DNA from: a virus
Direction: 5' to 3' (one strand)
DNA length: 25,867 bases
Virus record (IMG/VR): IMGVR_UViG_3300045970_000691
Coordinates: 1-25,867 of that record
Shown: in pieces, positions 1-24,141 of the stretch
Numbering within the stretch: the first letter of the stretch is position 1
How the letters are laid out: every line of letters begins with the position of its first letter
Position numbers and translations under genes: made by a program
The notes under the pieces: model-generated
The model's database searches: none
What the model was told of the DNA's origin: nothing
The model's input: only the letters and a program-made list of their open reading frames with translations

Positions 1-507
1 GTCGATCAGGCCGGACAACTCGGCTTCGCGGGCGAAGCAGGCCTGGACATGGTCCTTCACTGCTCGTGCGACGGCAGACAGGGCGGTGCGGTCGATAGCG
101 CGGAAGACTCCGTCGGAGCCCTTCCATTGCACGGTCTCATCGGCCCCGAGCTGTACGACAGCCCCGACGATCATGGCTTGGCTCTGGCGATCCGTGGAGA
201 TAGGCGCGCCGGCGACGGCGATCCCTCCGGTCTCGACGGCGTAGCGGCGCTCGGCGAGGTCGGACTTAGCCTTCGCCTTGCGCTCGGCAAGCGTGGGCTC
301 GGGAGGCGGCAGGGCGGGGGCCGGCTTCTCCACGAGGCAAGCGGCTGCTGCTGCGTAGGCCTCGAAGTCCGCGTCGGAGGAGAACTCGAAGCGGGACAGA
401 GAGGAGTCGGGGCCAGACCGAGTGCCGTTGATAAGGCGGATGGCCAGGGAGTGAGCAGGAGTGCCGGCGATGGCGTCGAGATCTGCACGGGTGTTTATGT
501 TGAGCAT
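1..507 (-). CDS. DUF4376-domain phage protein (partial, runs off left edge)
   Basis: Reading the minus strand from the ATG at 507 gives 169 codons with no stop up to base 1, so the C-terminus is missing. The N-terminal 60 residues are unremarkable. An Ala/Pro-rich linker (LPPPEPTLAE) follows, and then a block with the pattern RRYAVETGGI...ISTDRQSQAMI...WKGSDGVFRAID. That block matches the DUF4376 domain found at the C-terminus of phage tail-fibre and tail-fibre-assembly-like proteins. The start codon overlaps the end of the reverse transcriptase gene by 13 bp, so it is probably co-transcribed with the DGR. Its role is unknown; a tail or adhesin-related job is inferred from family context only. 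Confidence 0.7.
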   Translation of the reverse strand, partial: MLNINTRADLDAIAGTPAHSLAIRLINGTRSGPDSSLSRFEFSSDADFEAYAAAAACLVEKPAPALPPPEPTLAERKAKAKSDLAERRYAVETGGIAVAGAPISTDRQSQAMIVGAVVQLGADETVQWKGSDGVFRAIDRTALSAVARAVKDHVQACFAREAELSGLID

Positions 508-1610
508 GAGGATTGAGGTTGGAGTTGGAGGGAGGAGATAAGGTTACGGGCATCGGCCCATGAAGCATGGCCGAGCCAGGCCCCTAGGAAGCGTGCGCGG
601 GCGGCATGGTCTCCACGCCTTGCGAAGTGTCGGAGCTTGCGGCGAGCGCCACGCACAGAGGATTTCCGGAGCAACTTGTAGCGCTCAAAGATGCGATACC
701 CGAGGAAGTTGATCCCACGCGAATGATGAGCCACCATCCACCGGGAGAAGCGCAGGTGCATCGCCGTCGCGGCGAAATCCTCGGCGCGCCTAAGCAGGTC
801 GACCATCGACCTCCAATCGTGACCGATCACCACGACGTCATCCATGTAGCGATGCCACGTGAGCACGCCCTGCGCCACCAGCCAGCGGTCGAAGATGGCT
901 CCGTATACGTTGGCGAAGAGCTGCGAGGTGAGATTGCCTATGGGCAGCCCGGAGCCGTCGCGAGGAAGGAAGACCTCGATCAGCTGGAGCGTGCGCCGGC
1001 AAGATACTTTACGCTCGATCTCGCGCCAGAGCGTGGGCCGGTGGATGGAGGGGAAGTATTTCGCGAAGTCGGTCTTGAGGAAGTAGACGCCTTCACCCCC
1101 GTGGCATCGGATCGCGCGACGCAGCTCAGCCTGGACGGAGACCACCCCGTGATGCACGCCGGATCCGGAGCGGCACGCGTAGCAGCGGCCCATGAGCGTA
1201 TCATCGAAGAGCGGCTCTATCACATTGCAGAGAGCATGCTGAGCGACGCGATCCCTGAACTTGAGCGCGGAAATCTTCCGGGGCTTCGGCTCATAGACCA
1301 TGAACTCAGCCGGGGGCTCGGGGAGATAGATGCCGGAGGATATATCCCGCAGGAGCAAGGCCAGGCCGGCTTCGGACTCCTCCTTGAAGAGCAGGTACCC
1401 CGGCGTCAGGCGCTTTCCGAGCGAGGTCTTCCGGTAGGCCTCTCGGATGTTCTCCTCAGTGGCGATTGACGTGAAGAGGTTGCGGAATTTCTTACCCACA
1501 AGTGAAGGGCTAACGGGTTTCGATTGCCTACTCGCCGCGCCCTTACCTTGCAGTGTATTCGCCGAAGCGAGACGAGCCGGCTGACCACCTTGGTCTATCC
1601 AGGTGCCCAT
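495..1610 (-). CDS. DGR reverse transcriptase
   Basis: This is the reverse transcriptase of a diversity-generating retroelement. It copies the template-repeat RNA into adenine-mutagenised cDNA that replaces the variable repeat in the target gene. Visible motifs, numbered from the ATG at 1610: catalytic motif A around D181 (FLKTDFAKYF), the DGR-type motif IGNLTSQ at 224-230 (SQ where many group II and retron enzymes have QG), and the catalytic box YMDD at 255-258. At 371 residues the length suits DGR enzymes, which lack a maturase or endonuclease domain. The frame stays open upstream through the template repeat, but that part is not protein. The conserved core starts near GKKFRNLF, so a GTG at 1499 is a serious alternative start. 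No good ribosome binding site supports either. The C-terminus is basic. Confidence 0.93.
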   Translation of the reverse strand: MGTWIDQGGQPARLASANTLQGKGAASRQSKPVSPSLVGKKFRNLFTSIATEENIREAYRKTSLGKRLTPGYLLFKEESEAGLALLLRDISSGIYLPEPPAEFMVYEPKPRKISALKFRDRVAQHALCNVIEPLFDDTLMGRCYACRSGSGVHHGVVSVQAELRRAIRCHGGEGVYFLKTDFAKYFPSIHRPTLWREIERKVSCRRTLQLIEVFLPRDGSGLPIGNLTSQLFANVYGAIFDRWLVAQGVLTWHRYMDDVVVIGHDWRSMVDLLRRAEDFAATAMHLRFSRWMVAHHSRGINFLGYRIFERYKLLRKSSVRGARRKLRHFARRGDHAARARFLGAWLGHASWADARNLISSLQLQPQSSCST

Positions 1611-1637
1611 GGGCGGCCTGGTGTTGGTGAAAATGGC

Positions 1638-1741
1638 GTCACTGCGGCAGCGCGCCCCGATGTTGGAGTTGGAGTTCCACGGGACGTTGTTCCAATTCGA
1701 CGAGCGAGAACCGCAGTTCGCGCCGTTGTCCCAGTTGCCGC
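1638..1741 (-). repeat. DGR template repeat (TR)
   Basis: This is a 104-bp near-copy of 2204-2307 at a constant offset of 566 bp. The two copies differ at ten positions: 1663, 1664, 1669, 1670, 1690, 1691, 1697, 1727, 1729 and 1736. Every one is a T on the plus strand, which is an A in the coding-strand template. By hand count the TR has 22 coding-strand adenines, of which 10 differ, and 82 other bases, of which none differ. The changed adenines are in AAC, AAT or GAC codons, the usual DGR design. The repeat lies between avd and the reverse transcriptase gene and is expected to be part of the structural RNA. Similarity breaks down beyond 1741-1742 and before 1638. Confidence 0.95.
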
Positions 1742-1749
1742 TATCCAGC

Positions 1750-2094
1750 TCATCTCTTCGCGCTCTGCACTCGCCTGATCCAGCTCCCGAGCATGCGCCC
1801 GACTTCCGCGATATGGACTGCGGCCGTCTGGTGCTGATGCTGCGATATGAGTCGGCGCTTGGGCGAGGCGCAGAAGCGCAAAATAAAACGGAGCGAAGCG
1901 AGGCCGGCGTCTGCGGCATAAAGCCGCGAGATTTGGCCGGATTTCCCCGCTTCGATAAACAAATCGACTTGGCGCAGCACGAGCCCGAGTGCGTGGTCGC
2001 GGGCGATGTAGTCGGCCCGACGCAGCCCGATGAATATCGGGTAGGCGTAGTCAATGAAGTGCTCGTATCGCTCCACGATGGCGAGCTGATCCAT
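1750..2094 (-). CDS. avd: Avd-like DGR accessory protein
   Basis: The protein has 114 residues from ATG 2094 (MDQLAIVERYEHF). It is mostly helical by inspection, with many Arg and Lys residues and a basic C-terminus (GSWIRRVQSAKR). Size, composition and position fit Avd, the four-helix-bundle accessory protein that forms a pentamer, binds the reverse transcriptase and the template RNA, and is needed for mutagenic homing in Bordetella phage BPP-1. It lies between the target gene and the TR and ends 8 bp before the TR. The frame is open upstream to another ATG at 2193, but that extension crosses the hairpin at 2169-2186 and has no domain-like sequence, so the shorter start was preferred. Assignment rests on context and general character, not on a sharp motif. 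Confidence 0.75.
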   Translation of the reverse strand: MDQLAIVERYEHFIDYAYPIFIGLRRADYIARDHALGLVLRQVDLFIEAGKSGQISRLYAADAGLASLRFILRFCASPKRRLISQHQHQTAAVHIAEVGRMLGSWIRRVQSAKR

Positions 2095-2168
2095 GCACTG
2101 GTATGGCGCTGGATCAGCTTCTCTTGAGGTAGAGGTGCTCGGGTCATCTTTCGAGGTGCGTGCAATCG

Positions 2169-2186
2169 GCTCCGCTTTCGCGGAGC
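2169..2186 (-). promoter_or_regulatory. DGR target-site hairpin downstream of VR
   Basis: A perfect 7-bp inverted repeat (GCTCCGC/GCGGAGC) encloses a 4-nt loop that reads GAAA on the coding strand. It starts 17 bp past the 3' end of the variable repeat and overlaps the target gene's stop codon. In BPP-1 and other phage DGRs, a short GC-rich hairpin or cruciform with a GRNA tetraloop just 3' of the VR is needed for efficient target recognition. Position, stem length and loop all match that element. Confidence 0.8.
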
Positions 2187-3703
2187 TAGGCATGTTGCAG
2201 GTGGTCACTGCGGCAGCGCGCCCCGATGGAGGAGCCGGAGTTCCACGGGACGTTGAGCCAATCCGACGAGCGAGAACCGCAGTTCGCGCCGTCGACCCAG
2301 TAGCCGCCGAGCAGGATCGCCTTTGGCGAATTGGCTGACGGTGCATAGATCTGACCCCGCCCCCTGGTCGTACCGCTCCACGCCCATGCAGGTGTGCCTC
2401 CCTCGATAGAGAGCTGGCTCGACCACTGCCACATGACGCCGGAGATTTGGTAGAGTCCGCAGCGAGAGGTGAACGCCGGGCTGAGCCCGGTCACGCCGGG
2501 ATCAGCGCCCAGCGATGCCCCCTCGGTCGTGCCGTACGCGAATGCCGAGAACTGCTCGATGCTCATGAGGGTCTTGCCATGGCCGGCGGCGATCTCAGAG
2601 CAGGCCCACCAGTCGCACCCCTCGTAGGTGGCGGTGCCATCTCCGCCGAAAGAGGTGTGTCGTTTCGGGAGAGAGGAGCCATCGGCTATGGTCACGCCGT
2701 ACTTCGAGGTGCCGTTGACCAGGTGGCCGGACCCGAGCATGTACAGGTCTCCCCACCCATTCGCCGCCGACTCGAAGGCCATGCCTCGCGGATCCGGGCT
2801 AGCCGGTCGGAATTTAAGATCCCACAGGCTGCGCGGGTGGATCTGTGGCGTGGAGTCGCCGCCTGCCTGGCCGGCAGCGCAGCCTCCCGGGCCGTAGTGG
2901 TAGCCGCCGATCTTGAGCGAGTTTGCGGTGGTGTAGCCAGTCGGAGCGGTCCAGTTCGCCGAGGCGATAAGGCGTCCGTCGGTCGTCGCATAGATGGCGT
3001 AATCAGTGCCGACGGTGTGGGCGGGGACCTCGATGGCGGTTTGGGCGGCGATGTCGATGATCCTCCCGGCCACGGCGATGCGAGTGCCTGCGAGGACTGA
3101 GATCGACCCCGGTCCCGTCCGGGCGCAGACCGGACTGCTGAAGTCGATCTTGCGCACGATGCCATGCGGGGAGTTCACCGCGATCAGGTCGACTGTCTCG
3201 GTCTTATTGTAGTACTCAGGTCCAGCGGGAGGGGCAGAGGCTCCTCCGTCCCCTGTGGCATCCTCGACAAGGGTGAGGTGCGTAAACCCATAGGTGAGCG
3301 AGGCCCCCCCGGAAGTCAGACCAGAAAGGACCAGCCAGAGAGAGCGCTCAGATCCGCCATCGATCGCCAGGTTGGTCTCGCCGGCTGTCAGGGCGACGGT
3401 GCAGTGCTGCTGTGTCCCGGCTAGCCATTCGTCGTTCGTCAGGGCCGGGTAGATCTGCGCTGCGGCTACGGTCTTTTCGATAAGCAAGGCCTCCGGGGCC
3501 GGGCTTCTCGAGGAGCGTATTTCGAGCTTTAGGCTTGCGAGATTAGAGAGGTCAAGGGGAGCGCCGGCAAAATAAGTAGCCAGCGCGATAGACAGATCTG
3601 TCCCGCGCCAGGCGCGCGGCATATCGCCAGTGCGGGCATCGAGAGCGGGGGCGGTGCCATCTGTCCGGAAACAGAGGCGCATGGGCATGGTGGATAATTG
3701 CAT
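2186..3703 (-). CDS. DGR target protein, Mtd-like, C-type-lectin-fold variable domain
   Basis: This 505-residue protein is probably displayed on the virion to bind the host. The N-terminal 130 residues (RAWRGTDLSIALATYF...LDLSNLASLKLEI) resemble tail or baseplate-associated proteins. A central stretch with EYYNKTETVD precedes a region with EIAAGHGKTLMSIEQFSAFAYGTTEG and GVMWQWSS. That region closely follows the core of major tropism determinant (Mtd)-type DGR targets. The C-terminal segment (GGYWVDG...IGARCRSD) has the GG-W and GARC pattern of the formylglycine-generating-enzyme-like C-type lectin fold and contains the VR. The ATG at 3703 was chosen because it lies 8 bp past the stop of the preceding gene; ATGs at 3688 and 3682 are possible. 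The receptor is unknown. Confidence 0.88.
   Translation of the reverse strand: MQLSTMPMRLCFRTDGTAPALDARTGDMPRAWRGTDLSIALATYFAGAPLDLSNLASLKLEIRSSRSPAPEALLIEKTVAAAQIYPALTNDEWLAGTQQHCTVALTAGETNLAIDGGSERSLWLVLSGLTSGGASLTYGFTHLTLVEDATGDGGASAPPAGPEYYNKTETVDLIAVNSPHGIVRKIDFSSPVCARTGPGSISVLAGTRIAVAGRIIDIAAQTAIEVPAHTVGTDYAIYATTDGRLIASANWTAPTGYTTANSLKIGGYHYGPGGCAAGQAGGDSTPQIHPRSLWDLKFRPASPDPRGMAFESAANGWGDLYMLGSGHLVNGTSKYGVTIADGSSLPKRHTSFGGDGTATYEGCDWWACSEIAAGHGKTLMSIEQFSAFAYGTTEGASLGADPGVTGLSPAFTSRCGLYQISGVMWQWSSQLSIEGGTPAWAWSGTTRGRGQIYAPSANSPKAILLGGYWVDGANCGSRSSDWLNVPWNSGSSIGARCRSDHLQHA
2204..2307 (-). repeat. DGR variable repeat (VR) with invariant 3' end (IMH-like)
   Basis: This is the variable partner of the TR, lying in the last codons of the target gene (residues about 466-500 of 505). 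Seven codons differ from the TR: AAC to TAC, GAC to GTC, AAC to GAC, AAT to GAT, AAC to CTC, AAC to GGC and AAC to TCC. This gives Y, V, D, D, L, G and S in place of N or D. The last 23 bp (2204-2226) are identical to the TR, are very GC-rich and lack changes, as expected for the initiation-of-mutagenic-homing region. The hairpin at 2169-2186 follows. Confidence 0.95.
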
Positions 3704-4644: not shown

Positions 4645-6555
4645 TCAAGGGGCGGCGGAGATCAGGCGCTGGCCGGAGGCTGCATTGCCGACGGCCACAC
4701 CATACTGCAGGGCGATGCGCCAGAAGGCGGATCCCAGCTTGTGGTCGACGTACTGCACGAGCATGACGGAGAGGCCCGTGTCGGGGTTGGTTACCGTGGA
4801 GACGGAGCCTGCGCCCGCCGTGCCGGGGAGCACATCGGAATAGTTGTTGGGCAGGCGGGTCGCGATCGCCAGGGCGTCGGCCGATCCGGCGAAGCCCGTG
4901 AGGTTGCCCGTGCCGGGAAGGCTCACGGATTGGATGACGTTGAAGCCCGCGACCGGGGGCAGCGTATAGGCGGTGATGACCTCGGGCTTCTGATAGGCCG
5001 CGAGATTCACGAGGGCGGAGTCTCCCATGAGCTTCTCGTAGTAGTCCGGGTTGAGCAGCGCGAAGCGGCCCATCGGCGCGACGTTACGGTTGAAGAGAGC
5101 CTTGGCCATCGCGGTCATGTCGGCGCGGGCGAAGTTGGCCAGGGCCTTCGTCGTCGTGTTGGCGAAGTTGGCCGCGATGATCTTTGCATAGATCGCGTCG
5201 ACAAGCACCTTGCCGAGCGCGTAGTGCGCGGCGTCCGCCTGCTCGCCGAAGAGATCGCGAGCGGTGCTCGAGAGTTCGTTCGCATTGAAACTGATCTGCA
5301 CGCCCTTGTGCTGGTCGATGAGGATCGGTACGTCCGTAGCGATGGCGTCGCTCACCGCGTAGCCGGTGCCGGGCACGTAATCGACGGTCGTGGGGATGGA
5401 GCGCAAGCGGGTCTTCACGGTCTGCCCTGAGGCGATCGCCTGGTCGGAGTAGTCCGTCGAAATCGCCGACAGGACGGGGAAGGACTCCTTGAGCAGCGCG
5501 AGCGAGCGGCGTGCGACCAAGTCGCCGGAGAGGCTGCCCAGGTTATTGGCCGCGAGGATGGGTCCGAGGCGTTCGCCACGGTTGAGCACCGGGGAAATCT
5601 CGCGGGCGAAAATCACAGCGCGAGCACTGTCGCTGTTGGAGGCCTGGAAGGCGCGGAGGTTTTCCACGACGCCGTCCCTGGCCTGGATCTGCACGCCTTG
5701 GCGCACGAGGGCCGAGGAGGCCTGCACGGCGGGGTGGGCTGGGAGACTGGCGAGCAGCTCAGCGTTGCTCTCGTCCTCGTTGAGGACCTTGCGCCAGCGC
5801 TCCTGCAGGGCGGCATCTGCTGCGGGCAGGGCACCGCGGGCGACGGCGGCCTGGATGGCGGCGTTCGTGCGTGCGGAGCGCGCGGCCGCGACACTGGCTT
5901 CAGCCGTGGCGAGACGAGCCTGGAGTGCGGAGTTTTCAGAGCGGGCGGCCTGGAGGGCAGCCTGCGAATCAGTGGGTGCGACTCCCGCGGGGGCCGCTCC
6001 GGTGGTTGCGGTCGCAGTGACCGCGGGGGCGTTGGTATCCATGGATGGTGTGTTGTTTTGGTTGTGGGCGCGCTGCGCCCAAATCGGTGAAATCGCTTCA
6101 AATGCCGGATCGTTGACGAGGCCTCCGTGAAACTTGGTGGAGCCCGTCACCTGGCCGCTGGCCGAGGCGAAAAACTCCGGGGAAAATGCCCGGTAGGTGC
6201 GTCCCTGGATCGCGGCGCGGCCGGCGTCGCTCCAGTCGAGGGCCATCATGACGCCCTGGCCTTCCTTCCAGCTGTAGCCCGTGGGCCAGCCGGCCGCCTC
6301 CTGGTGCTTGTGGTTGAAGTCGATCAACGGCCGGTGGCCGGTGGCGATCTCCTCGCGGAGCGCCCGGTCCATGACGCGCGCGGTTTCGGCGGTCACAGTC
6401 ACCTGCTTCGTGATCGGCTGCCCATCGCGCGTCGCGACAATCGTGTGCGTGCCCGCAGGCATCCACATGATTTGCGCGGGCACCTCGGGACTCTCCGAGA
6501 GAATCCTGGGAGCCATGCGTGCCTGCAGGGGAGCTTCTGTGGTGGTCGTGGTCAT
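4645..6555 (-). CDS. Fused Mu I-type protease, scaffold-like linker and major capsid protein
   Basis: This single 636-residue frame carries three parts. Residues about 30-165 resemble the Mu I head maturation protease: IDFNHKHQEAAGWPTGY and RTYRAFSPEF carry the Asp/His and Ser expected for the catalytic site. Residues about 190-290 are an Ala/Glu/Arg-rich coiled-coil-like stretch, as in scaffold proteins. From about residue 320 on (GQTVKTRLRSIPTTVDYVPG...DVPILIDQHKGVQI) it looks like a major capsid protein. In Mu these are separate genes (I with internal Z, then T). An in-frame ATG at 6042 (MDTNAPAV) could start a separate scaffold-capsid product of 465 residues. The start overlaps the preceding gene by 4 bp. 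A sequencing or assembly join cannot be excluded, but the frame is continuous. Confidence 0.85.
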   Translation of the reverse strand: MTTTTTEAPLQARMAPRILSESPEVPAQIMWMPAGTHTIVATRDGQPITKQVTVTAETARVMDRALREEIATGHRPLIDFNHKHQEAAGWPTGYSWKEGQGVMMALDWSDAGRAAIQGRTYRAFSPEFFASASGQVTGSTKFHGGLVNDPAFEAISPIWAQRAHNQNNTPSMDTNAPAVTATATTGAAPAGVAPTDSQAALQAARSENSALQARLATAEASVAAARSARTNAAIQAAVARGALPAADAALQERWRKVLNEDESNAELLASLPAHPAVQASSALVRQGVQIQARDGVVENLRAFQASNSDSARAVIFAREISPVLNRGERLGPILAANNLGSLSGDLVARRSLALLKESFPVLSAISTDYSDQAIASGQTVKTRLRSIPTTVDYVPGTGYAVSDAIATDVPILIDQHKGVQISFNANELSSTARDLFGEQADAAHYALGKVLVDAIYAKIIAANFANTTTKALANFARADMTAMAKALFNRNVAPMGRFALLNPDYYEKLMGDSALVNLAAYQKPEVITAYTLPPVAGFNVIQSVSLPGTGNLTGFAGSADALAIATRLPNNYSDVLPGTAGAGSVSTVTNPDTGLSVMLVQYVDHKLGSAFWRIALQYGVAVGNAASGQRLISAAP

Positions 6556-15952: not shown

Positions 15953-16699
15953 ATGACAGACATCATGACTAGCCTCACCAGCTACCAATTCGAGGGACGC
16001 ACCGTGCGCACATCTATGACCGAGATAGGCGATCCTCTCTTTGTTGCTGCAGACGTGTGCGGCATCCTTGAAATCGCCAATACGACAGACGCGCTCAAAG
16101 GGCTTGAGCCTGATGAAGTCCACATGATTACCCTCGCTAGTAGCGAGGGTATTCGCGGCAATCCTAACGTGAATGCGGTGACCGAAAGCGGACTCTACGC
16201 ACTCATTTTTGCCAGTCGGAAACCCGAGGCTAAGCGATTCAGAAAGTGGGTTACGGCTGAGGTTCTGCCGGCCATTCGGAAACATGGCATCTATCGGATG
16301 GCCAGCGTTTCCACCATGCGCCAGATCGACAAGCTGAAGTTGCGCCTTGAGGCGGCTGAGCTGCGCGCAAAGGCCCAGGCCCTGGAAGCAATCGCTCGCG
16401 GAGACCGCGCCAGACCCGAAGACGGAGGCGTGACGGATCGTCCTGTTGGTTGGCTTACTGTGCCGGAATTTGTTGCAGCAAAGCTCCCAAAGACGGATCC
16501 GCGATATGAAGGGACTCTCTTGCGGCTTGGATGGAGAAGGGAGCTTCGTAAGGCAGTGGTTGGCTCCGGTGTGGTGAAAGCCCGCACTGGAAACTCCGTT
16601 GCTCGTAGAGTCTTTCGACCCGATCTGTTGGAGAACGCCTGGGTGTTTGTTGCTGCGGACATCGGGCTCGATAGTCAACTCCCTGGAATGGAGGCCTGA
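15953..16699 (+). CDS. Bro-N domain antirepressor-like protein
   Basis: The 248-residue protein has an N-terminal Bro-N domain: RTSMTEIGDPLFVAADVCGILEI, NVNAVTESGLYALIFASRKPEAKRFRKWV and TAEVLPAIRKHG are family hallmarks. A helical linker (DKLKLRLEAAELRAKAQALEA) and an unassigned C-terminal domain with WLTVPEFVAAKLPKTDPRYE follow; the latter looks DNA-binding. Such proteins often counter phage repressors or act as regulators. Its opposite orientation to the genes on both sides, and a base composition lower than that of the structural genes, suggest a separately regulated insert. A second ATG at 15965 is a possible start. Confidence 0.85.
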   Translation: MTDIMTSLTSYQFEGRTVRTSMTEIGDPLFVAADVCGILEIANTTDALKGLEPDEVHMITLASSEGIRGNPNVNAVTESGLYALIFASRKPEAKRFRKWVTAEVLPAIRKHGIYRMASVSTMRQIDKLKLRLEAAELRAKAQALEAIARGDRARPEDGGVTDRPVGWLTVPEFVAAKLPKTDPRYEGTLLRLGWRRELRKAVVGSGVVKARTGNSVARRVFRPDLLENAWVFVAADIGLDSQLPGMEA

Positions 16700-23596: not shown

Positions 23597-23655
23597 ACGC
23601 ACAACAAACGCACAGACGCACATCGTCAAGCGTTTATTGTGCGTTACCTGTGCGT
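23597..23655. promoter_or_regulatory. Operator array between repressor and early operon
   Basis: Five copies of the 7-bp motif TGTGCGT or its complement ACGCACA occur in 59 bp: 23597-23603, 23608-23614 and 23616-23622 (ACGCACA), then 23638-23644 and 23649-23655 (TGTGCGT). Copies 1 and 5, and copies 2 and 4, are symmetric around base 23626. Copies 1-2 and 4-5 are each spaced by 11 bp, close to one helix turn. A minus-strand TTGACG (23624-23629) in the centre could be the -35 box of the early promoter. The repressor and/or the Ner-like protein probably bind here. Confidence 0.8.
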
Positions 23656-24141
23656 TTTGAAGAAAAGCTAAAACTCCTCCTGGAAGAGCGACGATTAACC
23701 CAAGTCGACGTAGGGAGTGCTTTAGGCATCGCGCACACTAGCGTAGGTCGATGGCTCGCCGGTTCTATCCCCCACCGGGGACGGTTGCGAGAGCTCGCCG
23801 ACTACTTCGGTGTGACTGTGGAGGAGCTGGTCGACGACCGCCTCCCCCTGCCCGCGAGTGTCCTGCCGCCGGTCCGCGAAGCGGCCGCGGTGGGGTCGCG
23901 GTCGGAGTTGCGGGACTACGAGACAGAAGGGGTGAAGGCCTCGCTCGATCTCGTGGGGAGTGCCCCTGCTTCCCAGCCCCCCGCCGCCGAGCTCCTCCAG
24001 ATCAGCCAGTCCCTGGCCGCCCTAGCCGCCCGCCTCTACGCCGGCGCCGACCTGTCCACCCTGTCTGCCCAGCTCGATTCCCTGATCGCCCGCGCGACAG
24101 CGGTCCACAGCCGGGCGGTTACGAGGAAGGGGAAGAAATGA
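23650..24141 (+). CDS. XRE-type phage repressor
   Basis: The 163-residue protein has an N-terminal helix-turn-helix: RRLTQVDVGSALGIAHTSVGRWLAGSIPHRGRLRELADYFGVTVEEL is a textbook XRE domain at residues about 14-60. The C-terminal half is helical (LLQISQSLAALAARLYAGADLSTLSAQLDSLI), probably for dimerisation; no LexA-type peptidase is seen. The only in-frame start is GTG 23650, which lies inside the last operator copy, so the mRNA may be leaderless and self-repressed. It is divergent from the Ner-like gene, as c is from ner in Mu. Confidence 0.85.
   Translation: MRFEEKLKLLLEERRLTQVDVGSALGIAHTSVGRWLAGSIPHRGRLRELADYFGVTVEELVDDRLPLPASVLPPVREAAAVGSRSELRDYETEGVKASLDLVGSAPASQPPAAELLQISQSLAALAARLYAGADLSTLSAQLDSLIARATAVHSRAVTRKGKK

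Follow-up and report, generated by a model that had tools for sequence, protein, structure and literature searches.

Within the window analysed, the whole 25,867-base stretch of a viral record that constitutes a 25.9-kb fragment without host flanks, the parts of a diversity-generating retroelement (DGR) were located together on the minus strand, as follows:

495-1499, minus strand: reverse transcriptase (RT), 334 aa, likely GTG start, motifs intact including YMDD
1504-1624, minus strand: Phage_DGR RNA (RF03022, Rfam match), a structured spacer downstream of the TR
1638-1741, minus strand: template repeat (TR), non-coding, from the recomputed repeat alignment
1750-2094, minus strand: Avd accessory protein, 114 aa, ATG at 2094
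2169-2186, minus strand: hairpin/cruciform downstream of the VR, 7-bp GC-rich stem and GAAA loop
2204-2307, minus strand: variable repeat (VR), 3' end of the target gene, 104-bp gapless match to the TR
2186-3703, minus strand: Mtd-like tail protein (the target), about 505 aa, ATG at 3703, start picked by inspection

Read along the minus strand, the element opens with the target gene and its VR and continues with the hairpin, Avd, TR, Phage_DGR RNA and RT, an arrangement that corresponds part for part to that of phage BPP-1 (mtd, avd/bbp7, TR, brt); a DUF4376 gene (4-507, minus strand) lies directly downstream of the RT with a slight overlap. A preliminary description of the element had placed it at 1638-2307, which is correct for the span from TR to VR but too narrow for the element as a whole, which occupies about 495-3703; the hairpin, and the Phage_DGR RNA between TR and RT, were absent from that description. 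A simple scan for promoter and terminator signals returned nothing above chance.

The RT was recognised by both RVT_1 (E = 5.6e-11) and phrog_1423 (9e-92), and aligned with its BPP-1 equivalent as present in the solved RT-Avd structures (8ub7; 1.7e-100), which at 49% identity is its closest counterpart among named phages. Because the Phage_DGR RNA occupies the beginning of the listed RT frame, translation most likely starts from the GTG at about 1499, the exact position at which the alignment to the BPP-1 enzyme also begins. The RNA itself matched RF03022 over the full length of the model with 70.6 bits (E = 2.1e-10; gathering threshold, 50), and the accessory protein was assigned by Pfam bAvd (2e-25), phrog_3206 (Avd) and PDB 4dwl, the Bbp7 protein (3e-33). 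The hairpin lies 17 nt beyond the VR, its first base being the last of the target stop codon, and the 76-nt stretch that contains it gave a fold z of -2.3. Hairpins of phage DGRs have been characterised by GRNA loops, stems of 7-10 bp and distances of 4-34 bp, and both loop and stem were shown to affect homing in BPP-1 (Guo et al., PMC3240598); the hairpin described here conforms to this published rule in loop, stem and distance, and comparable structures are present in the related cassettes and in BPP-1.

The target protein proved to be composite. Its C-terminal part returned the second domain of Mtd (Pfam mtd_2nd, 1.5e-22), the target was assigned to the tail protein family phrog_11262 (6.7e-107), and residues 190-507 of the translated stretch aligned with Mtd-U1 (PDB 1yu4; E = 8.9e-83), the alignment to the Mtd crystal-structure chains running through the VR to the end of the protein. 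The lectin-like C-terminal domain proposed beforehand is thus supported by sequence alignment across the VR itself. The N-terminal 170 or so residues are unrelated to Mtd and were assigned to no family in the domain and family searches. Use of the whole target, and then of its N-terminal part, as queries recovered no relatives, by a short-pattern method that may overlook some; relatives of the target do occur beside related RTs.

Recomputation of the repeat alignment directly from the sequence gave 10 mismatches and no gaps over 104 bp. The coding strand of the TR is composed of 22 A, 34 C, 32 G and 16 T, and all ten differences fall on the 22 adenines, with none at the 82 other bases, a distribution with a probability of 2.5e-8 of arising by chance. 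The substitutions in the VR (A to T, four; A to G, four; A to C, two) alter seven codons, namely N to Y, D to V, N to D (twice), N to L, N to G and N to S, so that asparagine is the residue specified by the TR in six of the seven. These seven residues lie at the C-terminus of the target and, to judge from the Mtd alignment, sit in its receptor-binding domain. The gapless 104-bp pairing, the confinement of its ten differences to adenines and the diversification of seven target residues, all of which had been claimed previously, were each reproduced by this recount and codon comparison. Neither a third copy of the repeat nor a remote target was detected in the entire record.

Elsewhere in the window, Portal_Mu (1.6e-71), Mu-like_Pro protease (4.9e-15), Mu Gam (5.5e-22), a phrog_310 transposase (6.7e-08) and phrog_296, a MuB-like ATPase or DNA-transposition protein (3.5e-17), were all found, and the earlier designation of the phage as Mu-like is well founded. 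A search with the portal recovered one relative, the 9-kb L035. The protease (residues 30-237) and the major head protein (about 336-550) share a single 636-aa frame (4645-6555, minus strand); in Mu these are the products of separate genes. Two regulator-like genes, coding for a BRO-N antirepressor-like protein and a Cro/C1-type HTH regulator (15953-16699 and 23650-24141), are on the plus strand, the rest of the layout being mostly on the minus strand.

When the RT was used as a query, 28 loci were recovered in viral contigs and three in bacterial genomes, of which one exactly duplicates a viral record. The best relatives, with RTs 63-67% identical, were three IMG/VR contigs (L003-L005) and a locus in an Opitutaceae MAG (L031), all with the same layout including TR, VR and Phage_DGR RNA. 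A search of IMG/VR with the TR pattern found no near-identical copy of the present cassette, and the population test was conducted on its relatives, in nearly all of which a seeded scan identified TR/VR pairs. Across 34 such pairs from 29 loci (this one and BPP-1 included) the VR differed at 400 of 767 TR adenines and at only 9 of 3146 non-adenine bases, a contrast biased upwards by a pair finder that penalises non-A mismatches. Two close pairs of cassettes were more telling. In L003 and L004, which are about 99% identical, 12 of 107 sites, every one a TR adenine, distinguish the two VRs, while the TRs differ at 0 of 107 and the remaining aligned bases at 28 of 3703 (0.76%); in L016 and L019 (96.5% identical) all seven VR differences are at TR adenines and the TRs are identical over 116 bp. 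The check originally suggested, that VR changes in related genomes should be confined to positions of TR adenines while the TR stays constant, thus gave the expected outcome in relatives.

These data bear directly on how the repeats originated. A direct repeat at the end of a gene can arise by plain duplication, with the differences then supplied by point mutation or by selection for variable binding residues; however, such an origin would have to place all ten changes on adenines (P = 2.5e-8), hold a non-coding TR constant while the VR changes in close pairs, and leave an RT, Avd and DGR RNA adjoining the repeats by coincidence. Its likelihood is negligible, and the recurrence of the adenine-only pattern in independent close pairs refutes it. 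By way of contrast, that same pattern, together with the BPP-1 order and protein homologies, the Phage_DGR RNA and the GAAA hairpin, makes it very nearly certain that the locus is a complete BPP-1-type DGR, situated in the tail region of a transposable, Mu-like phage. The defining parts of a DGR are all in place: near-identical repeats differing at TR adenines in ten cases out of ten, an RT that retains its catalytic YMDD motif and matches phrog_1423 and 8ub7, an accessory protein of the bAvd and Bbp7 type, and a VR at the 3' end of a gene whose C-type-lectin fold is indicated by sequence alignment to Mtd structures. To these are added the two parts typical of BPP-1, the structured RNA beside the TR and the GRNA-loop hairpin 3' of the VR. 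The initial proposal of a complete adenine-specific DGR, with a YMDD-containing RT, an Avd-like gene and an Mtd-like target adjacent to one another, is accordingly upheld, each protein matching its BPP-1 equivalent in both sequence and position.

Whether the element is still at work is a separate matter. The VR/TR pattern is the footprint of past homing, and we infer that activity in this phage is ongoing. It could instead be that the DGR is now inactive and that the VR records former homing alone, a reading which draws on the failure to find a second copy of this phage that would show continuing change. However, the cassette retains intact RT motifs, Avd, RNA, hairpin and target frames, related cassettes show recent diversification, and the dN/dS values for the RT (about 0.23 relative to L003, and 0.11 for L003 relative to L005) indicate purifying selection among relatives, with dS near saturation in comparisons with the nearest of them. 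Present inactivity consequently appears improbable, and the cassette is probably functional. The original wording, that the element 'is or was active', is reasonable in view of the VR/TR footprint, the intact RT motifs and the VR-only, adenine-only change in near-identical relatives.

That the mechanism is RNA-templated, that it serves host attachment and that it operates today are inferred from the biology of BPP-1. The TR and its adjoining structured RNA would be transcribed, and the RT, acting with Avd, would copy the TR into cDNA with random bases inserted opposite template adenines. That cDNA would then take the place of the VR that ends the Mtd-like tail gene, the exchange being guided by the GC-rich 3' end common to both repeats and by the downstream hairpin, the predicted outcome being an altered receptor-binding face of the tail protein. 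Rewriting of the tail tip in this manner probably serves attachment to changing bacterial surfaces.

The resemblance to BPP-1 extends over part order, RT, Avd, the body of Mtd, the Phage_DGR RNA and a GAAA hairpin that overlaps the stop codon of the target. Unlike the present phage, BPP-1 is not known to be Mu-like, and an attachment site is annotated in it at tRNA-His; furthermore, the Mtd body is here fused to a longer and unrelated N-terminal part. Cassettes of this kind seem to be common to different phage types. Since the nearest are in records with different head genes, exchange between phage types is suggested: the fragment records L003-L005 contained no match to the Mu-like portal of this phage, and L005 differs in its head and portal families. 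Because of those other head genes, and because the N-terminal residues of the target match nothing found, we are inclined to favour, with some reserve, joint movement of the cassette and Mtd body between phages of unrelated types followed by re-anchoring, in which event the different N-terminal part probably fits the tail of this Mu-like phage.

DGRs in Mu-like phages are already published. The Bacteroides hankyphage likewise combines a Mu-like transposase with a DGR, its 117-bp repeats showing mismatches at 14 adenine positions and its VR varying between hosts while the TR is constant, but there the VR (residues 2188-2225) ends a much larger protein (PMC6199706). More than 30,000 DGRs have been catalogued, and phage DGR clades target host-attachment proteins in which varied N-terminal domains are joined to C-type-lectin VR domains (PMC8144416). 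The joining of the Mtd body to an unrelated N-terminal part and the suggested exchange of the cassette are the only mildly unusual aspects, and they agree with that variety. The locus thus illustrates a known system well and is of low novelty: it enlarges an already extensive catalogue (PMC8144416) by one clean, complete BPP-1-type cassette, carried by a Mu-like phage, and raises no new question on how DGRs work. Its small value lies in comparison, the machinery and the receptor-binding body recurring on phage chassis of different kinds with N-terminal anchors that differ.

The L031 cassette (5235-5870; RT 63% identical, 806-codon target frame) belongs to an Opitutaceae (Verrucomicrobiota) MAG and offers a hint as to the host range of the lineage; phage proteins sought around it gave no PHROG match. 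Five other related cassettes (L006, L008, L014, L025 and L030) each contain one TR with two VRs, and hence two target regions per template.
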